Shown here: positions 3,890 through 51,600 of the stretch, piece by piece
Layout: every line of letters begins with the position of its first letter
Numbering within the stretch: position 1 is the stretch's first letter
IMG/VR virus record: IMGVR_UViG_3300021197_000351
Location: 1 to 55,256 of that record
Source of the DNA: a virus
Strand: one strand, 5' to 3'
Length of the DNA stretch: 55,256 nt
Position numbers and translations under genes: made by a program
The notes under the pieces: generated by a model
Told to the model about the DNA's origin: nothing
Database searches by the model: none
The model's input: only the letters and a program-made list of their open reading frames with translations

Positions 3890-4344
3890 TGCCAGATCAA
3901 AACAGACTGGACAGTCTCTTCATTGATATTGCGCATCGTGTCTCTCACATGAGTCACGATGTCGATACTAAAGTAGGTGCGGTGATTGTCAAAGACGGTA
4001 ACATACTTAGCATGGGTTACAATGGTATGCCTTCAGGTATGGACAACGATTGTAAGACAACCAATGGTGGTACTAAGGCTGAGGTAATTCATGCCGAAGC
4101 TAACGCCATATGCAAACTAGCCAAGAGCACGGGGTGTTCAGAGGGTGCAACACTTTATTGTACCCTTGCCCCTTGTGTTGAATGTGCAAAGCTAATACTG
4201 CAAAGTGGTATTAGTCGGGTAGTATTTTCTGATGCATATAAAGATGAAGCAGGAACACTACTACTAATTCAGAAAATTAAAGTAGATAGGACAACGTATG
4301 CAAGCACAACTCCAATACCTAACGGAGAAGATAAGAAAAGCTAA
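3889..4344 (+). CDS. deoxycytidylate (dCMP) deaminase
   Basis: Predicted to convert dCMP to dUMP. The zinc site is clear: HAEAN (His and catalytic Glu) and PCVECAK (two Cys). The DTKVGAVIVKDG and GYNGMPSG segments are typical of T4 Cd-like enzymes. Length is 151 aa, normal. It starts on the stop of the primase gene and overlaps the RNA polymerase start by 47 nt. Its product would feed a thymidylate synthase. Here that homologue looks switched to dCMP (see 52475-53266), so deaminase and synthase may compete for dCMP, as in T4. Confidence 0.93.
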   Translation: MPDQNRLDSLFIDIAHRVSHMSHDVDTKVGAVIVKDGNILSMGYNGMPSGMDNDCKTTNGGTKAEVIHAEANAICKLAKSTGCSEGATLYCTLAPCVECAKLILQSGISRVVFSDAYKDEAGTLLLIQKIKVDRTTYASTTPIPNGEDKKS

Positions 4345-6490
4345 AGCTCACATTGCTTGTAGTCTGCTAAAACTAACATCTGACGCAGACCTCGAGGCTT
4401 ACCTCGTGTTTACTATGGATACTATCCAGCAACACTTTACTCGTAACAGTATACGTGGAAATAAATCATACCAAGGTGAAGCCAATCTTACTCATTTAAG
4501 TACGACCATTGGCGAATATATTCTCGATGATATTAAATATTATCATGATGACCAACCACCGTGGGAATGGTTTAAGCTACGTGTAATGATGGGTGACTTG
4601 TTGCTGGAAGCGTTTTACCAAACACACCAGATTAATATCGGCAAAAATAAAGATGATTCTTTTGTACCGATGGAAAGCCTGGACCGAGGATTAAAGAGAA
4701 GTCGCACACACTATATCGTTGTACCAGAACTATGGAATCTAATAGTACCTGAAGGTTCTAAAGATTTGTTAGCTGGTACAACCTTTAATAAGCCTGAAGA
4801 TATTTCACAACTCATGCAACCTACTGACCGACCGATAATAAAAGGTTGGACTGAACAAAGGAGTGGTGAGTTTAACCAGTATCTTTACCGCGACTTTATT
4901 AAAAGCATGAATATTCTACAGCAAACTCCGTGGAAAATCAATACACAAATTCGTGATATTCTTTTGCGTAATCGTGAAAAGATTATCGATCAACATAAAC
5001 ACCTTCCCAAAAAGTATAAGTCTAAGATCATAGAGTTCGACCTAACAATGGCACGGTCCGCACTTATCGAAGACAATACTTTCTATCAGTATACTGAGGC
5101 TGACTATCGTGGTCGCCTTTACTACACGACACCATTTTTAAACTTTCAAAGTAATGATATTGCCCGAGGACAAATGTTATTTGCTAACGGTAAACTCATG
5201 ACTGAAGAAGGCCTTCGCAGATTAAAGATACATATCGCTAGCTGCTACAATCAAACTTATCATCGTGATGAGTTACCTGATTGGATTACAGCAGACTACT
5301 TATCGTATCTTAAAGATGAAGGACTAGATGATATATCAGTTGACAAGATGACACTGATAGATCGTGAAGCATGGACTGATAACAATATCGATATGCTAAT
5401 GTCAATTGCAGCTGAAGAGCGTATTGAACTAGCAGCTGAAAAACCTATTACACTTCTCGCTTGTGTACTAGAAATTTACAATGCCATTAATAGCGAGGGC
5501 GAATATTATACTTACTTACCAATCCCAGTAGATGGTAGCAACAACGGGTGGCAACATCTGTGTGCTATGTCTAAAGACAAAGAAGCTGGTGAACTTGTAG
5601 GAGTAGTTCCTCAAGAGATCCAGAAAGACTTCTATGTACAGTGTGCTAAGAATCTTATTACAAGATTACCGGAGTGGTTCGACGAGCGCCAGATGCCCAT
5701 GAAACATATACGTAAGGGTATCGCTAAGCGTGGATCAATGACCCGAGCATATAGTGCAGGCGCATCTAAGATAGCTGAGAACATGTATCTTGATTGTCAC
5801 GTTGAGGGGTACTTAGATAGGTATAATATTACTGAAGAAGATTGTCGACTGCTTGCTAAGCATCTTGTTAAGTCAATTGATGAGGTATGCGCAGGTCCAC
5901 TACAGACTATGAAGTTTCTACAAAAGATAGCTGAAGCTGAAATTGCTTCGGACTATGCTAAAGAAACTCAGCAGAAATCTATTAGATGGACTACGCCTTC
6001 CGGCTTTCCAGTTATCTACGAAGCATTTATAGATAACGAGTTTAAAGAGAAAGCAACTATCAGTTGTACTGAGCGAAAGGTTAAACCGGTGATTCGTAAG
6101 GAAGATGGTACTGAAGAAGAAACAGATACCATTCGTATCCAGCATGTAGGTAAAGAAGCTACAGACAAACCAAAGATACGTTCCTTTATGTCAGGCATCT
6201 CACCAAACTTTGTACACTCAATGGATGCTGCACACATGGCTGCAGTAATTAAAGAATGGGGCAGTGACTTCGGTGCTGTTCATGATTCATTCAGTGTACA
6301 TGCGTGTGATGTTGACGACCTACTTCAAATCATTAAGGATAAGTTTGTAAGCATGTATAACTATCCCAATTACTTTGATGTAATTGAGCACATGCTTATT
6401 ACTAATCCAGATAACTTTAACTATACACAACCAAGCCTCGGAAGCTTGGAGATAAGAGAGGTGCAAGACAGTGACTACTTCTTCGCGTAA
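4298..6490 (+). CDS. single-subunit DNA-dependent RNA polymerase, T7 type
   Basis: Phage RNA polymerase of 730 aa, shorter than T7 gp1 (883), mostly at the N-terminus. Motifs in order: DYRGR (Asp269-Arg273), motif A VDGSNNGWQH (Asp412), motif B AKRGSMTRAYSAG (Lys477, Tyr485) and motif C VHDSF (His662-Asp663). All catalytic residues are present, so it should be active. AGGA lies 6 nt before the ATG, and the gene overlaps the dCMP deaminase. It is the best candidate reader of the 18-nt repeats at 27096, 47112, 47137 and 51583. A second, divergent RNA polymerase is encoded at 7236-10724. Confidence 0.96.
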   Translation: MQAQLQYLTEKIRKAKAHIACSLLKLTSDADLEAYLVFTMDTIQQHFTRNSIRGNKSYQGEANLTHLSTTIGEYILDDIKYYHDDQPPWEWFKLRVMMGDLLLEAFYQTHQINIGKNKDDSFVPMESLDRGLKRSRTHYIVVPELWNLIVPEGSKDLLAGTTFNKPEDISQLMQPTDRPIIKGWTEQRSGEFNQYLYRDFIKSMNILQQTPWKINTQIRDILLRNREKIIDQHKHLPKKYKSKIIEFDLTMARSALIEDNTFYQYTEADYRGRLYYTTPFLNFQSNDIARGQMLFANGKLMTEEGLRRLKIHIASCYNQTYHRDELPDWITADYLSYLKDEGLDDISVDKMTLIDREAWTDNNIDMLMSIAAEERIELAAEKPITLLACVLEIYNAINSEGEYYTYLPIPVDGSNNGWQHLCAMSKDKEAGELVGVVPQEIQKDFYVQCAKNLITRLPEWFDERQMPMKHIRKGIAKRGSMTRAYSAGASKIAENMYLDCHVEGYLDRYNITEEDCRLLAKHLVKSIDEVCAGPLQTMKFLQKIAEAEIASDYAKETQQKSIRWTTPSGFPVIYEAFIDNEFKEKATISCTERKVKPVIRKEDGTEEETDTIRIQHVGKEATDKPKIRSFMSGISPNFVHSMDAAHMAAVIKEWGSDFGAVHDSFSVHACDVDDLLQIIKDKFVSMYNYPNYFDVIEHMLITNPDNFNYTQPSLGSLEIREVQDSDYFFA

Positions 6491-7235: not shown

Positions 7236-10200
7236 TTAAAGATCCATCTGTGTAAGGCTCTTATCAACTTGCGATAATACTTCTCGTTTATCTCTAGCAG
7301 TTACTGCAACCGCTTGTTTGTTTCTTTGACTAAGGTTCATAGTATTCTTAAGTGTCATAAGAATTCTTTGGATCTGACGCTTAGTAAATACTGTATTATC
7401 TACATCGATTCCCATATCAGCTAAGTCGTTTTCAAATTGAATAGCAGCTTGTTCACCCGCTACTTGAAGCTGGGCTGTGTACTGATCAATAGAAGTTCCC
7501 GGCGTCTTTGCTTTATGTTGAAGTGTCTTAGCTAGAAACTTACTTAAGACAAGATCGCCTTGCTTAGTGCGGGACAGTAGATATGCAAGTCCTCGGTACG
7601 GTCCATCTTCATCCAAGTTTACTTTCTCATTAGGGTCTGGAAGAGGGGCTGCAATCTTCTTCATGGTATCATCAAACCATGTACCAGCAACTTCCTCTAC
7701 ATAGCTGTGATCACGAATACCTTCGAACCAATTCTTGTTTGCTTCACGACGTACAGCAGCAAAGCTACCAAGGTCGGTAACAAACGCATCAAAGATAGGT
7801 AGGACAAATGGTTTACCCTTAGCGGCTTGACTAATTCGTTCCCACGATTGACCTGATCCTGTCCTAGCAATCATATTACCGTCATAAGACTGCACTGAAA
7901 CGGGAATGATTCTGCCTAACGTCCAGCCACCTGGTCCTAACTCCGCTCGTTCAGCGGAACCTTCTGCTTGTTCTTTATAGAATTGAACAGCAACTTTCTT
8001 ACGACCACCTTCTTGATCCTTAAATTCAAAAGAGCTGGAGGTTGTAAGCTCAGGTACCATTTGTTTACCAGCAGCATAACTACGGAAACCCATAGCATTA
8101 TCGAAGTAAAGCACCTCGTTACTGGCCATTGACATAACTGCGTTTGCTTTAAGCAGTCTACCCATAGCCACAACCTTTGGGTCCATGATTTCAAAGATCG
8201 AATCAACCAGCATTGTATGAAGAAAGTTTACAGTATCCTCAAGATTAATCTCACCAGCTACTGCTTCTTTCTTAATAGCCGCTGCTTCTGGTCCAGAGTA
8301 AACTGTAGTTTCCACATGTTGTTTAAGTGATGGTATTTCCTGACCATAACCCATAGTCATAGGTGACTTCTTAAGGAAGTTAGCCCTATCTTTAATTGCA
8401 AGGTTAAGGATGTTTGTAAAATAAGAAATCTGGTTAGCCGGATAAAGGGTACCAGCATAAGTACCAACAGTAGCCTGCATGTTTTCGCCCATAGCTTTTC
8501 GTGAATCAAGCCAATCTGTATTAGAAAAGTCTTGAGTTACGATAAGTCCTGTACGCTTGGCCATAGAAGATACACCAAGAATAGCAGCATTAGTAGCAGG
8601 TCCATGTGTTTTACCATCCATCTCAGCAGTGATTGTTGTTGAGAACTGTGCACCATCTTTACGAGCAGCATCATAGTTAGCCACTTCAATAAACAGGTTT
8701 GCAAACATTGGACCTTCGTCACCGTGCTTAGCTAGCTCGGCTTTCAGGTTTGCATCTAGTGGATCATTACTAAAGCGCTTTACAATATCCTGTTTGATAC
8801 CTCGCACCGCATCAGGTGATTGCGCTTTACGAATAGCTTCAATCGCCTGCTTTGCGCCATTAATATCAAAGCTATCGCGTGCCTGCTTAAGTTGATTACC
8901 CCAAGCTACAAACTGATTCCACTGATCATTGCCTATTGTCCGGTCAAATGTAGCCAGGCGTTCCTGAGTTGACAGCTCCGTACCCTTAAATACTTTACCA
9001 TCTTTTTCAGCGGACAGTAACAAACCTGAAACAATTTCTTTCCAAGCTGCTTCAACTTCACCACCAGTATTTGGCTTCCACTTATAAACATTTCCACCTC
9101 CTACAATAAACCTTAGGAACTTATGTGCCGCGGGATTATAAAGTGTTTGTTGTACATGAGTACGCCCAGTCAAAGACTGCATTGAAAACGTAAGATGATT
9201 AACTTCATTTGAATATTCTGCAGCAGCTCCCGCCACATTCAAAAACTTTTCACGGTTTGCTTGCAAAATCTTTTGAGGGTTGTATGCTTCTGCTTCTTTT
9301 ATAGCAGCAGCCCTAGCATCGGGGAATGGTATACGCATAGCGGTATCCATCATGCGTTGCTTTTCACCTTCAAGTTCATTCAACTTATCTAATCCAACAC
9401 CATACATTCCAGCATAGGTTTGATTATCAGGGTTGTTGGTATTGATTAGACCTAACATACCAAACATAAACGCCAGTCGCTCACGACCTGCATCATTTAC
9501 ATATGGAACACTATGATAGTTAGCCATTGATTCCTGAACCAGCGACCAGTCTTTTAGATCACCAACCTTTGTAGTAACCGGACGAACCCTCATGCGGCCT
9601 TCGAACACAGGCTGAGCTGTTTCTGATACACCTTTAAGTGGTTTAACTTCAGGCTGCGCCATTAAACCTTTAAAGTCTTCGTTCAATCTATCTAGTTCAA
9701 GTGCACCCTCTGGTGTCATTTGGTAATAGACTTGGCCACCTGAATCCACTTCACGCGTATCTCGATATACCATATCAGGATTCGCACGAGCATAAGTCTC
9801 TTTTGCAAGATCACCCAGGAAAGTAAATGTTTCAGGTGAAATCTCGTCAATGTTTTGTAAGTAATCATCTGTTGGTCTACCTTCATTTACTGCACGCTGA
9901 CGTTTGTATGCCATAAAAATTTCACGGCCAAGACCCTGATTACCAGAAGCCTTAGTAAATCGTTGACCACCTTGTTGTCCTGGTACATAATCACCAGGTA
10001 TGCCAGTCTCTTCATCAATCTTACCGGCCATTTCAGTAGCGGCATCCATTTGCTGGTGCATCCACGCTTCAGTTGTAAGAGACATAACCCTACCAAAGTC
10101 TGGGTCAACTGACATACGCCCAGTCTCTTCATCATATTTACCAGCATCAAGCATGCGAGGATCATATAGTAAAGACTGAACACCTACATTAACTGTTGAA

Positions 10201-10724
10201 CCACGTAAGGCTGGGGCGACCGGCACTTTAACATTTCCTTCTGGATCTGTTGTAGAGAATGCTGCTTCAGGAAACCCTGCTTGCAGTGTCTCTAATTTCT
10301 TAGCTGTAATCTTAGAGCCACCTACTTCTTCAGACATTACGGCAGTTGTATTATCTGCCCGCACAAGAGCACTCTCCAAAGGCTGCGTATTTTGTACAGC
10401 GCTTGGTGCAAGCGTAGTTCTCTTTAGTTTTTCTGTATAGGCTGGTACTCTTTCCCGCTCACGTTGTTCGGCAGCTAGATCGGGTGCCGGAGCAGGTGCC
10501 TCGGGCATATCAATAGCGGGCATCTGGGCTTCCGTGGCAACCTCTGTAATAGGCTGAGTAGGAATAACAGGCGCAGCAACTTCCGGAGCTGTGGTGGGCT
10601 CCGGGGTTACTGCTTGTTCTGGTACCGGAGTAGCCAGAATCTCTGCAAAATCGCTGACTTTACCCTCAGTTGGGATGACGGGCTGAGCCCCAGGTATTAC
10701 ACTAGGTCCTGAAAATTTAGCCAT
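7236..10724 (-). CDS. predicted virion RNA polymerase (N4 vRNAP-like), 1162 aa
   Basis: Last gene of the late operon. Four motifs of single-subunit RNA polymerases occur in the right order: SLTGR (517-521, the T/DxxGR element), motif A AEMDGKTHG (Asp703), motif B LKKSPMTMGYG (Lys785, Tyr793, which aligns residue for residue with T7 KRSVMTLAYG) and motif C LPIFDAFVTD (Asp979). The spacing from motif B to C (about 186) is near T7 (173). The first 90 or so residues are Pro/Ala-rich and likely disordered. Its place after the internal virion genes suggests it is packaged and injected, as in N4. It is far from the 730-aa T7-type enzyme in sequence. The motif assignment is mine by eye and packaging is inferred. 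Confidence 0.75.
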   Translation of the reverse strand: MAKFSGPSVIPGAQPVIPTEGKVSDFAEILATPVPEQAVTPEPTTAPEVAAPVIPTQPITEVATEAQMPAIDMPEAPAPAPDLAAEQRERERVPAYTEKLKRTTLAPSAVQNTQPLESALVRADNTTAVMSEEVGGSKITAKKLETLQAGFPEAAFSTTDPEGNVKVPVAPALRGSTVNVGVQSLLYDPRMLDAGKYDEETGRMSVDPDFGRVMSLTTEAWMHQQMDAATEMAGKIDEETGIPGDYVPGQQGGQRFTKASGNQGLGREIFMAYKRQRAVNEGRPTDDYLQNIDEISPETFTFLGDLAKETYARANPDMVYRDTREVDSGGQVYYQMTPEGALELDRLNEDFKGLMAQPEVKPLKGVSETAQPVFEGRMRVRPVTTKVGDLKDWSLVQESMANYHSVPYVNDAGRERLAFMFGMLGLINTNNPDNQTYAGMYGVGLDKLNELEGEKQRMMDTAMRIPFPDARAAAIKEAEAYNPQKILQANREKFLNVAGAAAEYSNEVNHLTFSMQSLTGRTHVQQTLYNPAAHKFLRFIVGGGNVYKWKPNTGGEVEAAWKEIVSGLLLSAEKDGKVFKGTELSTQERLATFDRTIGNDQWNQFVAWGNQLKQARDSFDINGAKQAIEAIRKAQSPDAVRGIKQDIVKRFSNDPLDANLKAELAKHGDEGPMFANLFIEVANYDAARKDGAQFSTTITAEMDGKTHGPATNAAILGVSSMAKRTGLIVTQDFSNTDWLDSRKAMGENMQATVGTYAGTLYPANQISYFTNILNLAIKDRANFLKKSPMTMGYGQEIPSLKQHVETTVYSGPEAAAIKKEAVAGEINLEDTVNFLHTMLVDSIFEIMDPKVVAMGRLLKANAVMSMASNEVLYFDNAMGFRSYAAGKQMVPELTTSSSFEFKDQEGGRKKVAVQFYKEQAEGSAERAELGPGGWTLGRIIPVSVQSYDGNMIARTGSGQSWERISQAAKGKPFVLPIFDAFVTDLGSFAAVRREANKNWFEGIRDHSYVEEVAGTWFDDTMKKIAAPLPDPNEKVNLDEDGPYRGLAYLLSRTKQGDLVLSKFLAKTLQHKAKTPGTSIDQYTAQLQVAGEQAAIQFENDLADMGIDVDNTVFTKRQIQRILMTLKNTMNLSQRNKQAVAVTARDKREVLSQVDKSLTQMDL

Positions 10725-10735
10725 GTGTTATCCTC

Positions 10736-13700
10736 CTATTCGAATACGCTAGCGATTGTTCGGTTAAGTTGATTGAATGGTCCCACAAATGGGGCTGTCT
10801 TAAGTATATCATATACACCTTTCTCCGGTCTACCTTCAATGATTTTACCTGCACCGCCGTAGACACGAGCCACGTTTGAAAGTGCAGCAGCCTCACCAGA
10901 GACCGTATTAAAGAACCATTCAGCTGCATTATCAGATGATGATTCATAGATAGGATAGATAAAGTTAAGAACGCGCTCACCAGTACCTAGCAATCCAGAC
11001 GAACCAACAGCACGCTGAAGCTTTTCCATATCGTCAAGATACGGAGATGGCTCACCATACTTAAGTAAGTCTTTCAAATACTGAGATACAAATCCAAGCA
11101 AAAGCATCGTTGCCATAACAGCAAACACATTATACTTCATAGCTGGCGTACCACGTGCAACGTACTCACCCCACATCTTAGGTATTTGATTCGCAGTAAA
11201 TGTAGAGATGAAACCCTGGAACTGCGTGAACAAAGCAAGATGTTGGTTCTGATAGAACAATGGACGGTTAGCAACACCTGGAAGTGCAATAGCCATATTA
11301 ACAAAGTTAAACTCTGCTTCAAGCATCATGGCATCAAAGGTTGCAGTTTGTTCTGGTGACCAAGGACCTGGCTGGTATACCATAGCAAGCATATCATCTA
11401 CGTTAATACCAAGATTACGAAGATGCTCTTCAGATTCCTGCACTGCGTTAGTCTTCGGCTCACCACTAACTCTTTGATCTTGAATCGTACTAAGATGATT
11501 CATAATAAAGTCATTAGCAATCGATGCTCGAATACTACGTGTGTAATCAGTCCACTGCTGTAGCCCGATAATCTTAAAGTATTTATCTAGCAGGTGTCGT
11601 GATGCATGCGTATTTTCTGTAGCACCAGTAGTCTGAGCTGCACCAACATCCCAATCAAAGAAGCCAAGGCGTTTAATGTTTTCTTGCCTAGACTCTTTAC
11701 CTACCTGTCGGTTTGTAGAGTTATAGCGAGGATCTGTTATAGTTCCCCATAGTGCTTGCGCCATTTCTTTTGAAGCATTACCAATAGTCTTAAAGACCAT
11801 ATCTTTCGGCAACCCTACAGTTGTAATAGCTAACTCAACAAACGATGAAATAGTAGCGAGAGGTAGACCAGCAATTGTAGTCCAGATACCAAGGTTCTTT
11901 TGTATATTTGAAAGCGTACGGTTTTGCATCCGCTTATAGTTACCAGACTCTGCATCTAGGTAGTCTTGCATTTGTGCTGCAACTTTATTCACTTCTGCTG
12001 CAGGTATACCTTCTTCCAATGCCTGGTTTAACAACTCATTTACTTTTGAATTGTTATCACCAAGGAACTCTTGATAAGTAATATAACGAGACGCTGACTT
12101 AGCAGCATTAGATATATTAGTAAACGCATCTGACTCCATGAATTGTTTAAACTCAGGGTTCTCAGATAGGTTGAGAGTACGGCTGCGGTGTGCAGCGGGT
12201 ATAAACTTACCTTGACCTACATTAAATGTGTCTTGCTCCCCAACCAATGTTTCTTGATTAAGAATATTATCAGTAAGTGTTTCAGCATCAGTACGACTAT
12301 AGTTATAATTGTCTATTAGCTTTTGTATAAAACCGTTGCGGTCTTTTTCAATAGCTACTTTATTAAAAGACTTATACTTAAACAAGTAGTTCTTTATATA
12401 ACCAAGCGGCGCGGGCTTACCGTTCTTTTGAGCAGCCGCAACCTGATCAGCATATAGCTTATCACTAAGCCTCATAGTTTGCTGATAGTATTGAGCGAGC
12501 CAGCCACGATGCTGTTGAATATCCTGAGGAAGATTGTCCCAATCTAATTGTGCTTCAGATTGATTACCAAGCCAAGCAGAAAACTTATTAACAATACTAG
12601 ATATTTCTGGTTGGTTAATAGTTTTAAATCCAGCTGCCTGAGCAAACTCAGCAGGTGTACTAATCATATTTCGGTATTCAGTTAGCAAATGCTTCTTACG
12701 GTTTTCAAAGTTTGAACCTGAAAACGTGCGCTGTAGATTACCACCAAAAGTATCAGCCAATATTCGCATAGCCCTTGAGCGATCTTGCAAACTTTCGTTA
12801 AAGATAAAGCGTGTAGCACCTCGCCATAGGCTAGGCACAGCTTGCCAGGTATCTTTTACTCTGTCGAATACTGATCGATCTAGGTCACGACGATTAGCAG
12901 CGTCAACCTTTTCTTGGAAGCTAGCCCCTTGATTACCCCGCGCTGTTACAGCATTACCGGCATCATCATTCAGCTCTTGAATAGATTTAACTCTACCAAA
13001 CTTTTGAACCTCTTCATCAGCCCGCTGACCACGCTTAGATAAACGCTTAGCTTCTGCAGGTGCTTGACGTACGGCAACATCTGCCCAGGCACCTGCATCA
13101 TATGCAATACCAGGAATAGAGAAGCCCGCACCTAAAGTACCACCAGCAATAGTCGCATTTAACAGTCGGCTTTCAAGTTCAACTGCATCAAACTCTTTAT
13201 CACTACCAAGTGTAGCTGCCATATAACCAGTCAGTTCTTGCCCGGCTTCTGTTACAGCTTCGCCTGCCATACCTTTACTGGATGATGCAAGGAAGCTACG
13301 CAGTACATTACGCGATTTAAGTTGGTTCTTGGCAATTTCAGATGCTGCACCAGCAAGGCTAGCAACCTCAAGTCGTGTAGCATTGGCCAGCATATTCTTA
13401 GCAACAGTATCAGTGACACCATCACGTGCTACGATTGCAGCAACGGCGGCATCTCTAGTTTCTTTCTTAAGAATACTTGCACCCTTCATGATACCAAACA
13501 AACCGAGTCTATCAAGAGCAGCCTGCGTAACACCAGCAGCAATAGCTATACCAGCATTACGGTCTTCGCCTTCCATCTCATTCCAGGTTTGGCCTGTATA
13601 CATAGCAGCGGGCGAAAGCATTGACACACCGCCAGTAACCGGAGCAAGTACCGTACCAGCAATTGTGTTTGCCATATACGGTAATGACACTGCAGCGTTG

Positions 13701-14653
13701 TTACCAAGGTACTGAAAGAAATCACCAACACCGTCAATGTCCCATTCATTACCAGTAACGTTACCATCTTTGTCGACAATAGGTTTTAGTGCACTTAGCT
13801 TTAGCTCAGGCTTTGATGCCAGGAAAGCACGCTGACGTGCCACTCCGGCTTCACCTAATTCTTCTGCCCAATTCCAGCCGGTGGTTTCACCGACCATTTC
13901 AGCAACACCGTACATACTTTCAATAACACCAGTCAAACCTACATCAAAGCTTTCGCTTAGTGGGTTGACTGCTTTATTTTCTAGTGTACGATCTAGGCTA
14001 CGTACTTGCACACCTGCATTAATAAACTTGTTAGCCTCATCCCGACGGCGAGCATACATTGCTGCAGTTTCACCCGGCTGTTGAGGCGCATTAAGTCTTG
14101 CTAGTGCGCGTTCATTTAGTGCAGTCTGTTTAAACTCTTGCTCATACCGCATTTCATCGGTAGTCGCTTGCTCAATAGCTTGACCTGCTTTTTCCCAGTC
14201 ATTAAGAGGTTGATCAAGTTTACTAGCACGCTCAGCCATTCCCAGCTTAGCTGTAATAACTTCGTTGTTTGTACTGTATGCACCAACCTCATTAATACCA
14301 TGTTTAGTTAGTTGTTCTGTAAAATCACGACCAACCTTGTCTTTAATCCGTACCATTTGACGAGTCCCAGTGGCATCCATCATCGGACTACCATCTGGGT
14401 TCGTAAGATATTGTACGTTATTAAAGCCAAACTTATTAGCCAAGGCCATAATTTCTTGAGTAGCCGCCATACCACCAGCGGTTCCAGGATCAAGTCCTGT
14501 TGCCGTTACGTGGGCAAGCTCAGCTGCTTCTAGACCTTGGACACGGAGTAGGTTACCCTCACTATTCCTTAGTGTATCCGCATCAGCAAAGGTGTGTCCT
14601 CCACTACCTGCTAAGTCGGTACTTACTTGGAACAGTGCATCAAAGTCACCCAT
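10736..14653 (-). CDS. large internal virion / DNA-ejection protein, 1305 aa
   Basis: Probably an inner-core protein released into the cell envelope at infection, like T7 gp15/gp16 or P22 gp16. The sequence is mostly helical and polar, with Ala/Gly-rich hydrophobic stretches in the first half (MANTIAGTVLAPVTGG, IAIAAGVTQAALD) and later ones (ATISSFVELAITTVGLP, VFAVMATMLLLGFVSQYL) that could cross membranes. No lysozyme motif is visible; that sits in the neighbouring 14663-17992 gene. It lies 11 nt upstream of the putative virion RNA polymerase gene. The exact role is inferred from size and place. Confidence 0.7.
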   Translation of the reverse strand: MGDFDALFQVSTDLAGSGGHTFADADTLRNSEGNLLRVQGLEAAELAHVTATGLDPGTAGGMAATQEIMALANKFGFNNVQYLTNPDGSPMMDATGTRQMVRIKDKVGRDFTEQLTKHGINEVGAYSTNNEVITAKLGMAERASKLDQPLNDWEKAGQAIEQATTDEMRYEQEFKQTALNERALARLNAPQQPGETAAMYARRRDEANKFINAGVQVRSLDRTLENKAVNPLSESFDVGLTGVIESMYGVAEMVGETTGWNWAEELGEAGVARQRAFLASKPELKLSALKPIVDKDGNVTGNEWDIDGVGDFFQYLGNNAAVSLPYMANTIAGTVLAPVTGGVSMLSPAAMYTGQTWNEMEGEDRNAGIAIAAGVTQAALDRLGLFGIMKGASILKKETRDAAVAAIVARDGVTDTVAKNMLANATRLEVASLAGAASEIAKNQLKSRNVLRSFLASSSKGMAGEAVTEAGQELTGYMAATLGSDKEFDAVELESRLLNATIAGGTLGAGFSIPGIAYDAGAWADVAVRQAPAEAKRLSKRGQRADEEVQKFGRVKSIQELNDDAGNAVTARGNQGASFQEKVDAANRRDLDRSVFDRVKDTWQAVPSLWRGATRFIFNESLQDRSRAMRILADTFGGNLQRTFSGSNFENRKKHLLTEYRNMISTPAEFAQAAGFKTINQPEISSIVNKFSAWLGNQSEAQLDWDNLPQDIQQHRGWLAQYYQQTMRLSDKLYADQVAAAQKNGKPAPLGYIKNYLFKYKSFNKVAIEKDRNGFIQKLIDNYNYSRTDAETLTDNILNQETLVGEQDTFNVGQGKFIPAAHRSRTLNLSENPEFKQFMESDAFTNISNAAKSASRYITYQEFLGDNNSKVNELLNQALEEGIPAAEVNKVAAQMQDYLDAESGNYKRMQNRTLSNIQKNLGIWTTIAGLPLATISSFVELAITTVGLPKDMVFKTIGNASKEMAQALWGTITDPRYNSTNRQVGKESRQENIKRLGFFDWDVGAAQTTGATENTHASRHLLDKYFKIIGLQQWTDYTRSIRASIANDFIMNHLSTIQDQRVSGEPKTNAVQESEEHLRNLGINVDDMLAMVYQPGPWSPEQTATFDAMMLEAEFNFVNMAIALPGVANRPLFYQNQHLALFTQFQGFISTFTANQIPKMWGEYVARGTPAMKYNVFAVMATMLLLGFVSQYLKDLLKYGEPSPYLDDMEKLQRAVGSSGLLGTGERVLNFIYPIYESSSDNAAEWFFNTVSGEAAALSNVARVYGGAGKIIEGRPEKGVYDILKTAPFVGPFNQLNRTIASVFE

Positions 14654-14662
14654 AGCAATCTC

Positions 14663-17600
14663 CTATTCAGTTGGTAAGTTTAGTTGCTCTTTAGCATACG
14701 CATAAAAGGCAGTCTCGCCAGGTAGCGCACGCTTCTGATACTGCTGTACAATGTCAGGGGTTTCAGATACCTTCTTATTCCATATCTCAGCAGCCGAAGT
14801 CCAGAACATATTAACAGCATCACGGTTTGCACCATCGCTAATCTTACCTGTTCCACCAGCCCGCTTCAAGAATTGCAGGCTAAGCTCCTCAACTTTTACA
14901 GCATCCATTGGTACTTCTGCACCATCTTTTGTTGTAGTAGTAAAGAGATTACCAACACCGGTATCTTGACGTAGCTTTAGCTGATTTAGATATGGTAACA
15001 ATGATTCAGGCTTAACATTATTTTCACCACCAGATTGCTCTACTGCCATACGATATGCTTGTTCAACATATGTATTCATTGATGCAACATCAAGGTTGTT
15101 TTTAGCAGCCCATTCTGCAGCTTCCATTGCAGCATTTGTTGGCGTAATGTTAGTCTTTTGCGTACGAGCTCGACCTGCTTTTGAATCACCAGGAACTACA
15201 TCACCAATTGAAGTTGATAGTTCTTTGATTGAGTCTTTTAGCAGTGGCACTTCAGCACGAATACGATCATTGAATTCATCCGTACCCTTATGCCTTGAAG
15301 CTTGCTGAGTCCATGAAGCAGGGATAGCTGTCTTACCACCATCGGCAGACCAGATATGTCCATCACCAACCTTAAACTTCTCGGCTTGAATGCGTTTACC
15401 ACTTGGGCTATACCACATTTCTTTTGTACCGGTCGGATTAATAGCTGGCCCAAGCTTCATAAGTACACTAGCATCCTTAGTCTTCTTATATTTTTGAATA
15501 GACTTAGGTGTATACTTACCGTCATTGATTAGCTTTTTAACCTGCGCACTGTGCTCAGCAGCCTTAGCATCTACTCGTGTAAGGTATTGCTTTGCTGCCC
15601 AGTTAAGTGAACCGCCGTGTGAGCCACCCATAAGCCGTGAACCTGCATATAGAATAGCCATACGCTTTAGCTCACCCTTATCAAACAAATCACCGAAGAT
15701 GCCTTGCAAGAATGATTCAGCTTGCTCAGCCTTTTCTTGACCTTCAGCACCAGCCTTAGCAACCGCCTTCGAGGCATCAGCCGTGGTTGTACCATCAGCA
15801 GATCCATCATTGATGCTTTCAATCTTTTTAGTGATTGCTGTGAGTACTTCACTTTTCTGAGTAGCGTTTTCAGATGTCGTAGTTCCGTCGCCTTGCTCTC
15901 CAATATCGGTATCAGTGTCAATATTCTGACGCTGCTTCCAAGTATCAAAGTCTGGGAAGTTAGTAACCCCAGATGCTTCAGCAATACGCTTAGCCTCTTC
16001 ATAGTCAGCAGTCAAAGTTTCACGTGCAGCCGTTGCTTCTTCTAATCGTTTTGCTTCAGCGGCAGCTGCTTCGTCGGACTCTACCTTAGTAACCTGAGTA
16101 GTTTGACCCTTGTTTTGTGCAATAGCAGAGGCAGTATCAGAAGATACTTGCCCAGTTTCTGCTACTTCTTTTGTAGCTTTTTCTTGCAGGACTACGGCAT
16201 CCGCAGCTAATTGATCAACCGTCTTTTCATATGGCTTTACAATTTTACTTGGGTCAGCATCTGCTGTTTCAAGTAGTCCAGCCTGTTGCTGCGTAAAAGT
16301 ATCTTGCACGCCAGCTGGTGCCGGATGACCATAAGAGTTTAATAGTCTACCGTATTGATCAACAGTATAAACAATATTAGAACTAGGGTCGAGATAGGTT
16401 GTGCCTTCTGCAGGAAGCTGAGACTTTTGTCCCGGCTTAGGAGGTGCTACTGTATCAGGAACACGCTTACCTTTACCAGTATCTAAAAGCTCACCTGATC
16501 CGCGAGAACCGCTTGGTAAATCGCTAGTTGGCATTGGTACAGCCGACGCAGTGCCTTCACCTGTAATAGGAGACTCTTGATTATTAAGATTAGCGGCAAC
16601 CAAACCTGTTGCAGGATCTCTTGCCAAAGAGCCATCTGCTTTAATCCGATACCACTTCCCACCTTCTTTTTGATAGTTATCTGTTTTACCAAACTTATTA
16701 ATACTGCGTACCTCGGGGGTAGCAATAGGGGCTGGTACATCAGACACTTTAGGTATTGGAGGTGTAGCGGCTGTAAGCATAGCGGCTTCATTTGCTGCAG
16801 CATCCTCAGCTATGGCTGAATCTCTACGCATCTTTTGCATCATCTGAATTTCTTCAGCATGGCGAGCAGCGTCATAGTTAGTTCCGCCTTCTTCAAGAAC
16901 CTCATCACCAACATACATACCAGTATTTGCTGTTGCTTGTTGCGCAAGTTTCTTTAGTGCTTCATACTGTGCAGCATAGTTATCATCTTCAACTATACCA
17001 CCCGGCGCTTTATATTGTGTCTGCGCAGCAGCTAGCATATCTGCAATGGTGCTGGTAACAGGCATCTCTTGCCCGGTCATTGCAGTCATTACAGGCGTAC
17101 GACTAACCTCAGGTGTAGGTGGCTTAGGTACTGACACTGCTTCAGGTACCGATAGGTTATCAGTTGTAGCGGCTTGTGCTTCAGTAGTTCCAAACATACC
17201 CATAATACTTGCAAGCATTGTGGGTTCTTCAGTTGCCTGATAGTTCATAGCATAATCAACACGTCTATCAAGATGTGCTTTATCAGGATTAGCTTTTTCA
17301 TATCCTTCTAAAAAGATTTTAGCAGCATCAGCTGGTGACTCAGCTGCATTCATTGCAGTACGTACATCACCAAACGCTTCAGAGTTATTCATTTCAGCAA
17401 GCATAAAGTCTAACTGCACTTCAGGATTTCGCCAACTCTTTTCTTGCTCAGCCGCAAAATCTACAAGATTAAGTGGATCAGTATCAAATCTTCCACCCTT
17501 TTCCCATTGAGCAAGCCCCCTTCCCTTACCGGTTTTACCACCGTCAAGAATTTGTTTTGCGTCTGGATCAAGTTTTGATTCAGCATAAAAGTTACCCATA

Positions 17601-17992
17601 ATTCCACGGGCAGCTGCATCAGTAAACCCGCGAGACTTAAGCATTTTATAAAGCTGATCTGCTTCTAGTGCAGGAATGTTTGGCATTTTTGGTTTCGGTT
17701 TTGGTAAGCTAACTGGCCCTCCATCATTAGCATACTCAGGAATAGTTCCACCCTGAGCTGCTTGCATAGCACGACCTTTGTCATTCATTGCTTCAATCTG
17801 CGGTTCAAACATACGCACAGCTTCTGCATTCATTACAAACTCACCTGGCGTAAGCCAAGCAGGTACAGTATCAGTACCCTTTGGATCGCCGGGATGGTCT
17901 GGTATTGAAGACATCTCTGGTACAGAGGTATCGAATTCAATAGAGAACATATTACCATAGCGGTCTTTTTGTTCAAACTTTTTGAGTTTCAT
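14663..17992 (-). CDS. internal virion protein with N-terminal peptidoglycan hydrolase (phage tail lysozyme) domain, 1109 aa
   Basis: Residues about 40-55 carry DTVPAWLTPGEFVMN, a motif common in marine phage structural proteins. Residues about 108-250 look like a phage tail lysozyme domain: LYKMLKSRGFTDAAARGIMG, NFYAESKL (Glu138, candidate catalytic), and GRGLAQWE. The rest is long, low-complexity, Ala/Thr/Glu-rich and probably coiled or disordered up to a helical C-terminus. It likely cuts the cell wall during DNA entry. The stop overlaps the start-side neighbour at 17992 by one base. Confidence 0.75.
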   Translation of the reverse strand: MKLKKFEQKDRYGNMFSIEFDTSVPEMSSIPDHPGDPKGTDTVPAWLTPGEFVMNAEAVRMFEPQIEAMNDKGRAMQAAQGGTIPEYANDGGPVSLPKPKPKMPNIPALEADQLYKMLKSRGFTDAAARGIMGNFYAESKLDPDAKQILDGGKTGKGRGLAQWEKGGRFDTDPLNLVDFAAEQEKSWRNPEVQLDFMLAEMNNSEAFGDVRTAMNAAESPADAAKIFLEGYEKANPDKAHLDRRVDYAMNYQATEEPTMLASIMGMFGTTEAQAATTDNLSVPEAVSVPKPPTPEVSRTPVMTAMTGQEMPVTSTIADMLAAAQTQYKAPGGIVEDDNYAAQYEALKKLAQQATANTGMYVGDEVLEEGGTNYDAARHAEEIQMMQKMRRDSAIAEDAAANEAAMLTAATPPIPKVSDVPAPIATPEVRSINKFGKTDNYQKEGGKWYRIKADGSLARDPATGLVAANLNNQESPITGEGTASAVPMPTSDLPSGSRGSGELLDTGKGKRVPDTVAPPKPGQKSQLPAEGTTYLDPSSNIVYTVDQYGRLLNSYGHPAPAGVQDTFTQQQAGLLETADADPSKIVKPYEKTVDQLAADAVVLQEKATKEVAETGQVSSDTASAIAQNKGQTTQVTKVESDEAAAAEAKRLEEATAARETLTADYEEAKRIAEASGVTNFPDFDTWKQRQNIDTDTDIGEQGDGTTTSENATQKSEVLTAITKKIESINDGSADGTTTADASKAVAKAGAEGQEKAEQAESFLQGIFGDLFDKGELKRMAILYAGSRLMGGSHGGSLNWAAKQYLTRVDAKAAEHSAQVKKLINDGKYTPKSIQKYKKTKDASVLMKLGPAINPTGTKEMWYSPSGKRIQAEKFKVGDGHIWSADGGKTAIPASWTQQASRHKGTDEFNDRIRAEVPLLKDSIKELSTSIGDVVPGDSKAGRARTQKTNITPTNAAMEAAEWAAKNNLDVASMNTYVEQAYRMAVEQSGGENNVKPESLLPYLNQLKLRQDTGVGNLFTTTTKDGAEVPMDAVKVEELSLQFLKRAGGTGKISDGANRDAVNMFWTSAAEIWNKKVSETPDIVQQYQKRALPGETAFYAYAKEQLNLPTE

Positions 17993-19410
17993 TACTTGCC
18001 TCCAGAATCATTATCATTACCACTAGGTGTAGGTTCATCATACTCATCTTCCATACCGTAAACTCCTGATCCTTGGGATGTACCCGCACCTGCAGTTCCA
18101 GAAGAATCTGTTTGATATGAACCGCCTTGCCCATCGCTTACATTAAAGCCTGACATACCACCCTGACCATCGTTGTCTCCGGCCCTTAAGGAAAGCTCTT
18201 GATTTGCTTTAAGCTGTGTAGCCGCGTTATTGCTAAGTAAGCTAATACTTTGACCAGGGTTTGTACTGTCGCTAATTGAAACGACCGTACCGGTTGGTGT
18301 AGAGATAGTACCTGATTCATTACGCACACCGAATTGCCCGTTATCTAATGCTACAATATCACCAGTTTGTGTACCAAACTTACCACTAATGTTACTAGGT
18401 GCAGCGCGATCTCCCGTAAATCCAAGCTGTGCAGCAGTAATTGGTGTACCCTCTACTCGATCAATGTCATCATCTGATAAGCCAGTATAATCACCGGCAG
18501 CAATTTGAGTATTCATATTAATAAGATCGGCAACTGTTCCCATTGGTGCGCCTTCACCGCGCATACGAGCTGCTCGTGCACCTGCAATATTTAGTTCAGG
18601 GTTTAAGTCCATTTGTTTATATACTGAGTTATCATAGCTGCCTAATGCAGAACTAATAACACCTTCGCCTGCATCTCTTAGCTTACTATAACCACCTGTA
18701 ATAGTATTCATTGCGGCTGATGGGCTTGCATAAGATGCAACAGCACGACCAGTAATTGGGTCATATGCCCGACCTTCCGGCCCAAACACGTTACCTTGCG
18801 CATCATAAGTTCCATAACTACCATAAGTATAATCATCATTCATACCCATAGCGTTTGACAAAAAGCTACCACCTGGGATTGCAGCAAGTGCTAATCCTAA
18901 TGGGTTTTGTGTACCCCGTGCGTAGCCTAACCCTTGAGCTTGCGGAATTCTAGAGCTCGCATAATCAAAGCCGTCATTGTTATCACCAGCTTGTTGCATT
19001 GCTCCAACAACCGGGTCTGCGCCCGCTGGTGGGGGAGTAGTTGTTGGTGGAACACCAGGTGTAGTTGGTGGAGAACCTATTGGTGGATATGCACCAGGTG
19101 GTAAATCCCGAAACCCAACACCCTGTTGTTGTTGACCATTAACTATTGCACCTTGAGATGCAAAGGGGTCTTGATTAAATGCAAGAGGTTGTGTAGTTTG
19201 TGTACCGGTTGTAGATCCCATAACACCGGCGGTTTGTTGTGTACCCGCTTGGCCTGGTACCCCAGCACCAACTGTTCCTACAGCAGGTGCGGCTGTCCCT
19301 AATGTTTGAGGACTAGCTGACGCAGTTGCAGGTGCAAACTGAGAAGGGCCGTAACGTGTGCCATACTTAGGTTGTAGGCTGTACGTTGATTGATATGGAA
19401 CTGTAGCCAT
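17992..19410 (-). CDS. putative internal virion protein, Gly/Pro/Thr-rich, 472 aa
   Basis: Unrecognised protein in the block of internal virion genes. It is low in charge and rich in Gly, Ala, Gln, Thr and Pro, with a proline stretch (PPTTPGVPPTTTPPPAG) near residue 120. A more ordered middle contains IPGGSFLSNAMGMNDD and an acidic Gly-rich C-terminus ends NDNDSGGK. It lies 2 nt from the next gene upstream and shares a base with the lysozyme-domain gene downstream. The call rests on context. Confidence 0.6.
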   Translation of the reverse strand: MATVPYQSTYSLQPKYGTRYGPSQFAPATASASPQTLGTAAPAVGTVGAGVPGQAGTQQTAGVMGSTTGTQTTQPLAFNQDPFASQGAIVNGQQQQGVGFRDLPPGAYPPIGSPPTTPGVPPTTTPPPAGADPVVGAMQQAGDNNDGFDYASSRIPQAQGLGYARGTQNPLGLALAAIPGGSFLSNAMGMNDDYTYGSYGTYDAQGNVFGPEGRAYDPITGRAVASYASPSAAMNTITGGYSKLRDAGEGVISSALGSYDNSVYKQMDLNPELNIAGARAARMRGEGAPMGTVADLINMNTQIAAGDYTGLSDDDIDRVEGTPITAAQLGFTGDRAAPSNISGKFGTQTGDIVALDNGQFGVRNESGTISTPTGTVVSISDSTNPGQSISLLSNNAATQLKANQELSLRAGDNDGQGGMSGFNVSDGQGGSYQTDSSGTAGAGTSQGSGVYGMEDEYDEPTPSGNDNDSGGK

Positions 19411-19412
19411 AA

Positions 19413-19835
19413 CTATACCCCCTTATTAGATAGCGGTCCACCATAATTAATTTCAATTTCTTCAGCAATCTTACCACCAGACTGTTTGTATTTAACAGCT
19501 GAGATATTTGCCATTGATAGTGGTCCATTAACATAGCCACCTTTATTAAACAACCCACCAAGCAAACTTTCTAGCATTGGCATAGCAGCTTCATAAGCAA
19601 CTTCAGTAGCTATACCACCAGTAGGATCACCCATAGCAGCGCCTGCGGCACCAACGGTTTTCTTGCCGGCCTTTTTAAGCAGTTCCTCTTCACCTTTTTG
19701 CATAGCTTTTTTCATTGCACTTTGTTTTGCAAGTTCCATAAAGGAGGGCTGCTGCATCATTTGTGGTGCAGGCGCTCTATATAGTGGGCCCTGCATTGGT
19801 TGTTCGGTCCCCATTGGCTTAGCTAACTGAATCAT
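19413..19835 (-). CDS. putative small internal virion protein, 140 aa
   Basis: Met/Gln-rich N-terminus (PQMMQQPSFMELAKQSAMKKAM), a Lys-rich helix, then AAMPMLESLLGGLFNKGGYVNG, a Gly-rich hydrophobic stretch. The NKGGxVxG element recurs in the small protein at 38485-38673 of the same phage. Function unknown. The start overlaps the stop of the 19835-20377 gene, so they are probably coupled. Confidence 0.6.
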   Translation of the reverse strand: MIQLAKPMGTEQPMQGPLYRAPAPQMMQQPSFMELAKQSAMKKAMQKGEEELLKKAGKKTVGAAGAAMGDPTGGIATEVAYEAAMPMLESLLGGLFNKGGYVNGPLSMANISAVKYKQSGGKIAEEIEINYGGPLSNKGV

Positions 19836-20377
19836 TACTTACCTCCACCACCAGATGTTTTAGTTTGTTGAGGCGCACTTCCAAGATAACCAAAGTATCT
19901 TTGTGCACTAGTATGTGGTGCATCAAGTCTTTGTTGTTCATACTGCTGCAGTGCTGAACCTGCCTCACCTAGTGCCTGTGCACCAGCTGCTGCTTCTTGC
20001 TGCCTGCGCTGTTGATATGCTAAAGATCTATCCGCCAAAGCACCCTGCATGGCCTTCTGGGCACGCGCAGAGCCAAGCTGACCGCCATAGGCTGCCTGAC
20101 CTAGACTAGATCCCATTACGTTCCTCAGCTGGCGTTCTTGGGCTGCAGCCGTATCATACATTCCAGTACCAGCCATAGCTTGTTGAGCTAGCTTAGACTG
20201 TGCATCAATTGCTTGGCGCTGGCGTGGATCTAGTTTTGCTACAATAGCCTCTGGGCCTTTACCAACTTCAGTTTCATAACGAGTTGTTACATCACCTAGT
20301 ACGCGTTTTAGATAGGGTTTAAATTCAGGATCAATACCTGATGTTGTGGTTTGTCCACCACCGCCGCCACTACTCAT
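19835..20377 (-). CDS. putative internal virion protein (gp14/P22 gp7-type position), 180 aa
   Basis: Long Ala/Gln/Arg-rich helix (residues about 60-150: RQRQAIDAQSKLAQQAMAG, RRQQEAAAGAQALGEAGSAL) flanked by Gly-rich ends (SSGGGGGQ and SGGGGK). Helical, Gln/Ala-rich proteins of this size in this place are usually ejected internal proteins. It is not assignable to a named family by eye. Confidence 0.6.
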   Translation of the reverse strand: MSSGGGGGQTTTSGIDPEFKPYLKRVLGDVTTRYETEVGKGPEAIVAKLDPRQRQAIDAQSKLAQQAMAGTGMYDTAAAQERQLRNVMGSSLGQAAYGGQLGSARAQKAMQGALADRSLAYQQRRQQEAAAGAQALGEAGSALQQYEQQRLDAPHTSAQRYFGYLGSAPQQTKTSGGGGK

Positions 20378-27095: not shown

Positions 27096-27113
27096 CTTAT
27101 AGGGGACGTTTAA
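27096..27113 (-). promoter_or_regulatory. predicted phage RNA polymerase promoter upstream of nrdJ
   Basis: The minus strand reads TTAAACGTCCCCTATAAG, one of four near-identical 18-nt copies (others 47112, 47137, 51583). It ends 36 nt before the nrdJ start. The flanking form AATTAAAC...CTATAAGAGG resembles T3/SP6-class promoters (AATTAACC...CTAAAG; CACTATAGAAG), with an AT melting box followed by purines. It would drive nrdJ, the nozzle and the internal virion genes. Promoter activity is inferred. Confidence 0.75.
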
Positions 27114-35659: not shown

Positions 35660-36997
35660 CTATAGTGCAATTGACATTGCAATTGAAAATCCTTTTGTAG
35701 CAAAACTACTAGTATCAGTTGCCTGAATAGGTAACCACGTACCTACTGGCGCTCCTGTACCTGATGGTGCTACTGAACAATATTTAACTGCGTTATCTGT
35801 TGTGTTATAATACAAGTCACCTACGGTTACTGTCTTACCAGCCGCTTCATGTGCATTCTCTGCAGCCGCATCTGTAGCATAGTTACCGTAATACTTTTCA
35901 TCAAAGTTAGCCACACTGCTAGCCGCTTGGTCTGCCCAATAAGCCGCTGAATATTTTGCTGTTCCACCTGATCCTGTAACAGGAGTAGACATAACAAAGT
36001 TACCGCCACCTAAAGCCCATTGTTTTGCCGAGCCATTAGTGTTACCTGCTTGAATACCTACTGCATATTCTTTAGATGAGTATTCAGTGTTATCAGCTGT
36101 GGTAGATGTTTCAGTTGCCCAGTCTTTAGCATTACCAGCACCTGAAGCGTGATCTACACCTGTGCCTCCAGTTGCCCATGCTTTAGATGAATAACCTTCA
36201 CCTGTAACTGCTTCACCGTTTGTTTTTTGCGCCCATGCTTCTGCTTCATCTTCAGAGCCTTGTGCATCTGTAGCTGAACTTGCAGCCGCTGTAGCCGAGT
36301 TACCTGCATTTGTAGCTTGTGTACTAGCTGTTGATGCGCTAGTTGCCGCATTGTTAGCTTGAGTAGTCGCTGTTGATGCACTTCCCGCACTAGCAGTTGC
36401 TGAGTTACCTGAAGCTGTAGCACTATTAGCACTATTAGTTGCTGAAGTTGCTGCATTAGTTTCAGAAGTAGCTGCAGCTGTGGCTGAGCTAGCCGAAGCT
36501 GTTGCACTACTAGCACTAGCAGTTGCACTATTAGCACTTGCTGTAGCTGAAGTTGTTGCACTGTTAGCAGAACCAGTTGCTGATGTAGCACTTGATGCCG
36601 CTGAAGTTGCAGAGTTAGCCGCTGCAGTTTGTGAAGCTGCGGCATTAGTGGCTGAAGTACTTGCTTCTGCCGCTTTAGTTGTTGCTGTTGCTGCGTCTGC
36701 TGCTGTAGTTGAAGCAGAGTTTGCCGCCGCCGAGGCAGAGCTTGCACTAGCGGTAGCTGAAGTTGCACTCGCTGTAGCACTAGTTGCTGCGTTAGTTGCT
36801 GATGTAGCCGCATTAGTTGCACTAGTAGCCGCCGCTGTTTCTGATGCTTTAGCATTAGTTGCCGCTGTTTCAGCCGCTAGAACGTCTGCTCCTACAATAT
36901 CAGGAATACCATCAATTAGTGTATCTGTAAATAAGCCACCATTAGCGGCATTATCTGTTGCACCCGTAAATTGTCCGGGCCTTGCTGGTGTTGTCAT
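35660..36997 (-). CDS. long Ala/Ser/Thr-repeat tail fibre (shaft) protein, 445 aa
   Basis: Residues 1-40 are a short attachment sequence (TPARPGQFTGATDNAANGG, PDIVGADVLAAE). Residues about 40-260 are an uninterrupted coiled-coil-like repeat of Ala, Ser, Thr and Asn (AATSATNAATSATAS and variants), typical of phage fibre shafts. After this comes EAWAQKTNGEAVTG, then repeated WATGG/WALGG/YWADQAA units and a compact C-terminal domain with VGDLYYNTTDNAVKYCS. A strong opposite-strand open frame here is only the mirror of the repeat. Confidence 0.85.
   Translation of the reverse strand: MTTPARPGQFTGATDNAANGGLFTDTLIDGIPDIVGADVLAAETAATNAKASETAAATSATNAATSATNAATSATASATSATASASSASAAANSASTTAADAATATTKAAEASTSATNAAASQTAAANSATSAASSATSATGSANSATTSATASANSATASASSATASASSATAAATSETNAATSATNSANSATASGNSATASAGSASTATTQANNAATSASTASTQATNAGNSATAAASSATDAQGSEDEAEAWAQKTNGEAVTGEGYSSKAWATGGTGVDHASGAGNAKDWATETSTTADNTEYSSKEYAVGIQAGNTNGSAKQWALGGGNFVMSTPVTGSGGTAKYSAAYWADQAASSVANFDEKYYGNYATDAAAENAHEAAGKTVTVGDLYYNTTDNAVKYCSVAPSGTGAPVGTWLPIQATDTSSFATKGFSIAMSIAL
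36230..36870 (-). repeat. degenerate coding repeat of the fibre shaft
   Basis: Within the fibre gene the DNA repeats short GCN/ACN/AGY codon strings with a period of seven codons or a multiple of it, for example gtagctgaagttgcact and its variants. The repeat is imperfect at the base level, so it is kept by selection on the protein rather than by recent duplication. It creates long spurious open frames on the plus strand (36480-37019). Confidence 0.7.
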
Positions 36998-47111: not shown

Positions 47112-47129
47112 CTTTAAGGGGACATTTAA
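47112..47129 (-). promoter_or_regulatory. predicted phage RNA polymerase promoter, leftward (late genes)
   Basis: The minus strand reads TTAAATGTCCCCTTAAAG, 24 nt upstream of terL. It forms an inverted pair with the rightward copy at 47137-47154, so the two drive transcription away from each other. It matches the copy at 27096 except at positions 6, 14 and 15. Function as the main late promoter is inferred from place and repetition. Confidence 0.75.
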
Positions 47130-47136
47130 GATAAGT

Positions 47137-47154
47137 TTAAATGTCTCCTATAAG
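47137..47154 (+). promoter_or_regulatory. predicted phage RNA polymerase promoter, rightward (early/replication genes)
   Basis: The plus strand reads TTAAATGTCTCCTATAAG followed by AGGGGGGAGA, a purine-rich start like that of T7 transcripts. It is the only copy found that points right and would read the whole plus-strand half. It is a mirror partner of 47112-47129, separated by 7 nt. Confidence 0.75.
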
Positions 47155-47764: not shown

Positions 47765-47791
47765 GGAGAGGCTAACGCCTCTTTTCCAATG
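47765..47791 (+). promoter_or_regulatory. C(TAAC)G hairpin element, copy 2
   Basis: AGAGGC (47767-47772), loop TAAC, GCCTCT (47777-47782), then TTTCCAATG. The six-pair stem differs in sequence from the other copies but keeps pairing, while loop and 3' flank are conserved. It could also act as an intrinsic terminator, since TTTT follows. Confidence 0.55.
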
Positions 47792-51582: not shown

Positions 51583-51600
51583 CTTTAAGGAGACATTTAA
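51583..51600 (-). promoter_or_regulatory. predicted phage RNA polymerase promoter for the small terminase gene
   Basis: The minus strand reads TTAAATGTCTCCTTAAAG, 20 nt before the start at 51562. It is the fourth copy of the 18-nt repeat. Its orientation gives the isolated gene its own late-type promoter, supporting the reading direction deduced for the other copies. Confidence 0.75.

Follow-up and report, generated by a model that had tools for sequence, protein, structure and literature searches.

A compact single-subunit RNA polymerase, probably related to the N4 virion RNA polymerase, ends the late operon of an uncultured marine phage

Introduction

Single-subunit virion RNA polymerases (vRNAPs) of giant size have been described in N4-like phages. 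After its ejection, the N4 vRNAP transcribes the early genes, and the middle genes are transcribed by a T7-like polymerase, RNAPII, which is also phage-encoded (PMC4496689). Of the three ejection proteins of N4 the vRNAP comes last, and how an enzyme of 3500 residues gets through a channel of 35 A has yet to be explained (PMC12633501). The published signature of N4 vRNAPs is the motif ExDGxxxG, and an IMG/VR survey of N4-like viruses dropped related proteins shorter than 2500 aa (PMC10654107). Lack of cysteine has been used earlier to pick vRNAP candidates (PMC10747016). Alteromonas phage R22Y encodes a vRNAP, of 2083 aa, together with a second RNA polymerase (PMC11705849).

Two further proteins have been linked to this group. 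Zobellviridae phage ICP2 gp6, likened to vRNAP in PMC10747016, is devoid of ExDGxxxG and gave no significant match. ORF30 of Pseudoalteromonas phage Y3, for which a vRNAP was claimed (PMC11654794), seems to correspond to a gene of 10.3 kb with a ParB-like annotation, and therefore does not provide a compact vRNAP precedent.

Here we describe RNAP2, a protein of 1162 aa encoded in IMG/VR record IMGVR_UViG_3300021197_000351, of which the whole stretch of 55,256 nucleotides (the window) was analyzed. The initial annotation had called a phage that combines SU10-type head genes, a T7-type polymerase and a small virion polymerase unfamiliar. The pairing of a virion RNA polymerase with a T7-like one was already known; the size of RNAP2, its domain make-up and its phage background are new.

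Results

RNAP2 closes the late operon. This minus-strand operon runs from the terminase (47088) towards replication genes of the plus strand, with which it is convergent, and RNAP2 was found at its end, where the initial annotation had put it, reading from an ATG at 10724 to 7236 (Table 1). A DNA polymerase gene is split over the window ends, its N-terminal half (54333-55253) corresponding to residues 5-321 and its C-terminal half (1-891) to residues 323-612 of gp24 of Roseobacter phage CRP-7. The record is therefore circularly permuted and is probably a complete genome, which assigns the two polymerase genes to a single phage. The T7-type polymerase reported earlier for this genome was recognized by PHROG_414 (E=1.4e-99), and the SU10-type assignment of the head genes was confirmed for the portal (PF23899, E=1.9e-127).

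The genes upstream of RNAP2 form a cassette of five. The 1305-aa product matches particle proteins of LUZ24-like phages, including tf_51 of Pseudomonas phage tf, and the 1109-aa lysozyme-domain product is a probable peptidoglycan-cutting ejection protein. The order lysozyme protein, 1305-aa protein, RNAP2, converging small gene and T7-type RNA polymerase was retained in every relative in which the region is covered. Comparison of the neighboring ejection proteins with the N4 vRNAP N-terminal and C-terminal domains, gp51 and gp52 revealed no sequence similarity.

Table 1. Coordinates of the features discussed (window positions, or positions in the loci of relatives where prefixed by L)
Feature	Position	Strand	Remarks
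RNAP2, putative compact N4-type single-subunit RNA polymerase	7236..10724	-	1162 aa; last gene of late operon; no cysteine
T-G-R of T/DxxGR motif, residues 519-521	9162..9170	-	Arg521 aligns with N4 mini-vRNAP R424
Motif A, ExDGxxxG (EMDGKTHG, residues 701-708; AEMDGKTHG)	8601..8624	-	Asp703 = T7 D537 = N4 D559
Motif B, KKSPMTMGYG, residues 785-794	8343..8372	-	Lys785/Tyr793 = T7 K631/Y639
Motif C, IFDAF, residues 977-981	7782..7796	-	Asp979 = T7 D812 = N4 D951
T7-type RNA polymerase	4298..6490	+	730 aa; 10 cysteines; converges on RNAP2; probable second-tier polymerase
Internal virion protein	10736..14653	-	1305 aa; PHROG_6958 virion structural protein; no cysteine; homologue of CRP-7 gp34 and tf_51
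Protein with Phage_lysozyme2 domain (residues 111-251)	14663..17992	-	1109 aa; no cysteine
Low-complexity cassette protein	17992..19410	-	472 aa; no cysteine
Cassette protein	19413..19835	-	140 aa; no cysteine
Cassette protein	19835..20377	-	180 aa; no cysteine; CRP-7 gp37 homologue
TTAAANGTCNCCTNWAAG, candidate T7-type promoter	27096-27113	-	
TTAAANGTCNCCTNWAAG, candidate T7-type promoter	47112-47129	-	
TTAAANGTCNCCTNWAAG, candidate T7-type promoter	47137-47154	+	
TTAAANGTCNCCTNWAAG, candidate T7-type promoter	51583-51600	-	
TTAAANGTCNCCTNWAAG in relatives	L021:13495-13512, L025:13600-13617, L026:9939-9956, L031:3393-3410		

The four polymerase motifs that the initial annotation had named (SLTGR at residues 517-521, Asp703, Lys785-Gly794 and Asp979) all agree with the translation in their residue numbers. 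The protein matches PHROG_414, phage RNA polymerase, over residues 645-888 (hmmscan, E=7.1e-8), as do 12 of 25 relatives, one relative matches PHROG_2206, "virion RNA polymerase", and a Pfam search of RNAP2 gave no match. Approximately 80 Pro/Ala-rich residues at the N terminus are predicted to be disordered. In an alignment of 39 sequences reaching down to ~30% identity, Arg521, Asp703, Lys785, Tyr793 and Asp979 were invariant wherever covered. Since many relatives were recruited with search patterns that included motif B, the invariance of this motif is partly by construction; the relative at L049, which does not contain the pattern SPMTMGY, still reads KKPPMTLAYGQ at this site. Comparison with a relative of 96% identity gave a dN of 0.019 and a dS of 0.48 (dN/dS ~0.04). 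Thus, RNAP2 is under strong purifying selection.

The structural check proposed in the initial annotation was carried out with AlphaFold2, using an alignment of 25 sequences as input, and Foldseek, and returned a single-subunit RNA polymerase fold. The model (pLDDT 78.4, pTM 0.75) matched N4 vRNAP (9pnq, E=1.3e-12) first and T7 RNA polymerase (3e2e) at E=2.5e-12, and all of its best 50 matches in the PDB were phage or mitochondrial single-subunit RNA polymerases. Structure matches in BFVD, several of them annotated vRNAPs, agreed with this assignment. Superposition by VIA-align gave a Z score of 20.3 with T7 (1s76; 546 residues, 3.8 A) and of 17.9 with N4 (3c46; 764 residues, 8.3 A); with Z at ~20 for T7 and mitochondrial structures and 18 for N4 structures, structure alone does not decide between T7 and N4. 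The moderate TM-scores (0.4-0.5) make RNAP2 a remote relative of the known structures. Collectively, these predictions indicate a right-hand polymerase fold of the single-subunit RNA polymerase type.

In a profile alignment, Asp703, Lys785, Tyr793 and Asp979 fall on the corresponding residues of T7 RNA polymerase, and Arg521, Asp703 and Asp979 on those of N4 mini-vRNAP (Table 1). Motif B is thus in register with T7, as had been stated; it is out of register with N4 in the aligner's profile alignment, although N4 does have a matching KNPLTITIYG. The sharing of one site by the four catalytic residues, which the initial annotation required, agrees with their alignment onto the T7 sites. Because residues 787-795, inside motif B, were modeled with low confidence, the putative place of this motif beside the two aspartates is taken from the profile alignment.

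Profile-profile comparison by hhalign placed the RNAP2 family closer to N4 vRNAP than to T7 RNA polymerase. The family matched 11 N4-type vRNAPs at a probability of 97.4 (E=9.2e-12) and T7-type RNA polymerases at E=2.6e-5, compared with E=7.7e-7 between the N4-type and T7-type profiles; ten column-shuffled controls and one reversed control all gave an E of at least 0.26. When the family profile was compared with the whole genomes of N4, T7, CRP-7, tf, ICP2, EE36phi1 and Y3, only N4 was matched (E=0.0037), at motif A of its vRNAP. Pairwise identity among the RNAP2, N4 and T7 groups is 12-17% (~17% in the part of RNAP2 aligned with N4), and a family HMM found no match among PDB sequences, the link to N4 and T7 being visible only by fold or profile-profile comparison.

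Two sequence features distinguish the groups. ExDGxxxG was present in every RNAP2 relative covering the site and in 11/11 N4-type enzymes, but in 0/6 T7-type enzymes. The residue before the motif C aspartate is Phe, sometimes Tyr or Met, preceding Asp-Ala in the RNAP2 family, Phe in most N4-type enzymes (IFDG in N4) and His in T7-type enzymes (HDS in 5/6); HD[SA] is absent from the RNAP2 family. Taken with the N4-ward profile match, these features mark the catalytic core of RNAP2 as N4-type. T7-type RNA polymerases (PHROG_414, including that of the window) have the fold and the register of motif B in common with RNAP2, but differ in motif C, in the absence of ExDGxxxG, in their many cysteines and in the weaker profile match.

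N4 gp50 (mini-vRNAP residues 998-2103) and the Schitoviridae vRNAPs have the single-subunit fold, ExDGxxxG and the F-D motif C in common with RNAP2. As with RNAP2, gp50 is cysteine-free, and its gene ends the late operon beside those of ejection proteins, converging on early and middle genes. In contrast, full-length RNAP2 members (23 relatives) measure 1162-1471 aa, compared with 2842-3820 aa for reference vRNAPs (PMC10654107), RNAP2 is devoid of N4-like N-terminal and C-terminal domains, and its phage combines an SU10-type portal and T7-type replication genes in 55 kb. RNAP2 therefore departs from the N4-type vRNAP family in size and in the three-domain architecture by which that family is defined. 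It is nevertheless probably a relative of N4 vRNAP that works like it.

RNAP2 is cysteine-free in 38 of 39 family members, with a single cysteine in the 45,029 aa of the whole family. Together with its five upstream neighbors it contains no cysteine in 4368 aa, where ~38 would be expected (P ~2e-17), or 24.5 by the late-gene background (P ~2e-11); for RNAP2 alone against this cysteine-poor background the absence is less extreme, as for any single protein (P0 ~0.001). Among ejection-protein controls, N4 gp50, gp51 and gp52 and T7 gp15 and gp16 contain no cysteine and T7 gp14 contains one, compared with 9-14 in T7-type RNA polymerases. Cysteine is likewise lacking from some further structural proteins (window 36997-37884 and 39917-41026, N4 gp56, CRP-7 gp51), so that its absence supports but does not decide ejection. 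We infer packaging and ejection of RNAP2 from the position of its gene, with support from the absence of cysteine; the N4 vRNAP gene likewise lies at the converging border of the late operon. Passage through the oxidizing periplasm is, in our view, a plausible reason for the lack of cysteine.

Relatives of RNAP2 were found at ~50 loci in IMG/VR and on one contig binned into a Candidatus Pelagibacter metagenome-assembled genome (NZIO01000029.1), the latter a weak hint of a SAR11 host for that line. All 11 of the 11 records of sufficient length encode both RNAP2 and a T7-type RNA polymerase. A tblastn search of 50,697 phage records with RNAP2 and a distant relative found no match at 1e-5 and none of relevance at E 10. 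A detectable homologue was thus absent from isolated phages, and the group consists of uncultured marine viruses of bacteria. The more distant line at L049:1317-4550 is 30% identical in RNAP2 and 49% in the T7-type polymerase; its motif B is near the MTLAYG of T7, and its motif C reads IMDAI. In another relative, a NADAR-like insert lies between motifs B and C (L030:8285-8602, RNAP2 residues 1038-1143; PHROG_1017, E=6e-11; Pfam E=2e-4, under the curated cut-off). If RNAP2 is ejected, this phage would deliver an ADP-ribose-processing domain, possibly for counter-defence.

The nearest isolate is CRP-7 (MK613349; PMC6918029), with 55% identity in the portal, 54% in the major capsid protein and 49% in the primase-helicase. 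Its gp34 is homologous to the 1305-aa protein over the full length (E=7.5e-30), its gp30 is the T7-type RNA polymerase, and in the same layout a cysteine-free 1235-aa protein, gp33 (L054:17859-21566; also L056-L064), occupies the position of RNAP2. No sequence similarity between gp33 and RNAP2 was detectable and no RNA polymerase profile was significant over the length of gp33; there was a weak match at the motif C region only (E=0.003). The protein contains motif-like strings (GDAGSA for A, RGLVVAGLYG for B, IHDAL for C), and a trimmed structure model reached a pLDDT of 38. In LUZ24-like phages such as tf, homologous cysteine-free internal-protein genes end the late operon; in tf no RNA polymerase gene follows them, and no T7-type RNA polymerase is annotated in the region viewed.

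A candidate T7-type promoter motif, TTAAAYGTCYCCTWWAAG, was found upstream of the terminase and elsewhere, and the candidate promoter TTAAANGTCNCCTNWAAG recurs in the window and in relatives (Table 1). In seven relatives the start of TTAAANGTCNCCTNWAAG coincides exactly with the RNAP2 gene's end, and the motif faces the T7-type RNA polymerase gene from its 3' side. A search for an RNAP2 promoter yielded none that could be named. The promoters characteristic of N4-type vRNAPs are DNA hairpins of the early region. A GC-rich hairpin upstream of the first early gene (47767-47782, AGAGGC-TAAC-GCCTCT followed by TTTT) may be a terminator or an early promoter hairpin; its exact form was not found in the relatives' loci compared.

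Discussion

The gene with its motifs, the predicted fold, the closeness to N4 vRNAP, the conservation, the cassette and the absence of cysteine are observed features of this locus. From them we infer packaging, ejection, activity, an early role and a hand-over, and we put at roughly 0.8 the probability that RNAP2 is a reduced polymerase of the N4 virion type that is active, packaged and ejected, acts early and hands over to the T7-type RNA polymerase.

In the proposed model, RNAP2 would be a polymerase domain with a short, mostly disordered N-terminal tail, made late and packaged with the 1305-aa protein, the 1109-aa lysozyme protein and the three smaller proteins. It would exit the virion through the tail, unfolded or loosely folded, and refold in the host cytoplasm. 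By analogy with N4, RNAP2 probably starts viral gene expression, and would transcribe the first phage genes, on the early plus strand, the T7-type RNA polymerase gene among them. The T7-type enzyme would then be in charge of middle and late transcription, including the late operon. The separate cassette proteins may replace the missing N4 N-terminal and C-terminal domains, a replacement that no sequence similarity backs.

RNAP2 could instead be an active but unpackaged single-subunit enzyme that is produced late and joins the T7-type polymerase in the cytoplasm, serving for instance late genes or replication priming. Its place in the late operon of a phage that already owns a T7-type polymerase for other stages would fit this. 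We regard this as unlikely, since RNAP2 is as cysteine-free as ejected proteins, in contrast to T7-type RNA polymerases including the phage's own, always adjoins internal and lysozyme proteins and has a virion RNA polymerase as its closest sequence kin. Less probable still is a polymerase fold turned structural or ejection protein that has given up catalysis. The location of the gene among internal proteins would fit such a protein, as would its fast evolution (~33% identity compared with 77% for the T7-type polymerase in the same relatives), but the catalytic residues are all invariant across relatives of ~30% identity and dN/dS is ~0.04.

The palm fold is common to DNA polymerases, primases and reverse transcriptases, and RNAP2 might on that ground be one of these other right-hand polymerases. 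This we consider highly improbable: the best 50 PDB matches are RNA polymerases throughout, motif B has the form Lys-x7-Tyr-Gly with the equivalent of Tyr639, and PHROG_414 is matched.

For the reduced, ejected N4-type polymerase that we favor, a broader reading has about an even chance of being correct. In it, a stand-alone domain of ~1160 aa is ejected free of fused domains, whose tasks fall to cassette proteins, and forms with the T7-type RNA polymerase a two-tier program largely or wholly independent of host RNA polymerase, in a group of marine podoviruses that is uncultured and widespread. A far-diverged second line of this enzyme may exist in the CRP-7 gp33 family.

These findings suggest that the giant form of vRNAP is unnecessary for injection. 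The length filter of the earlier IMG/VR survey would exclude the RNAP2 family, and cysteine depletion may be a cheap marker of ejected phage proteins in unannotated genomes. A compact vRNAP, one third of the size of that of N4 and accompanied by a non-N4 portal and replication genes, would reveal which parts are dispensable and would ease expression and study of these enzymes.
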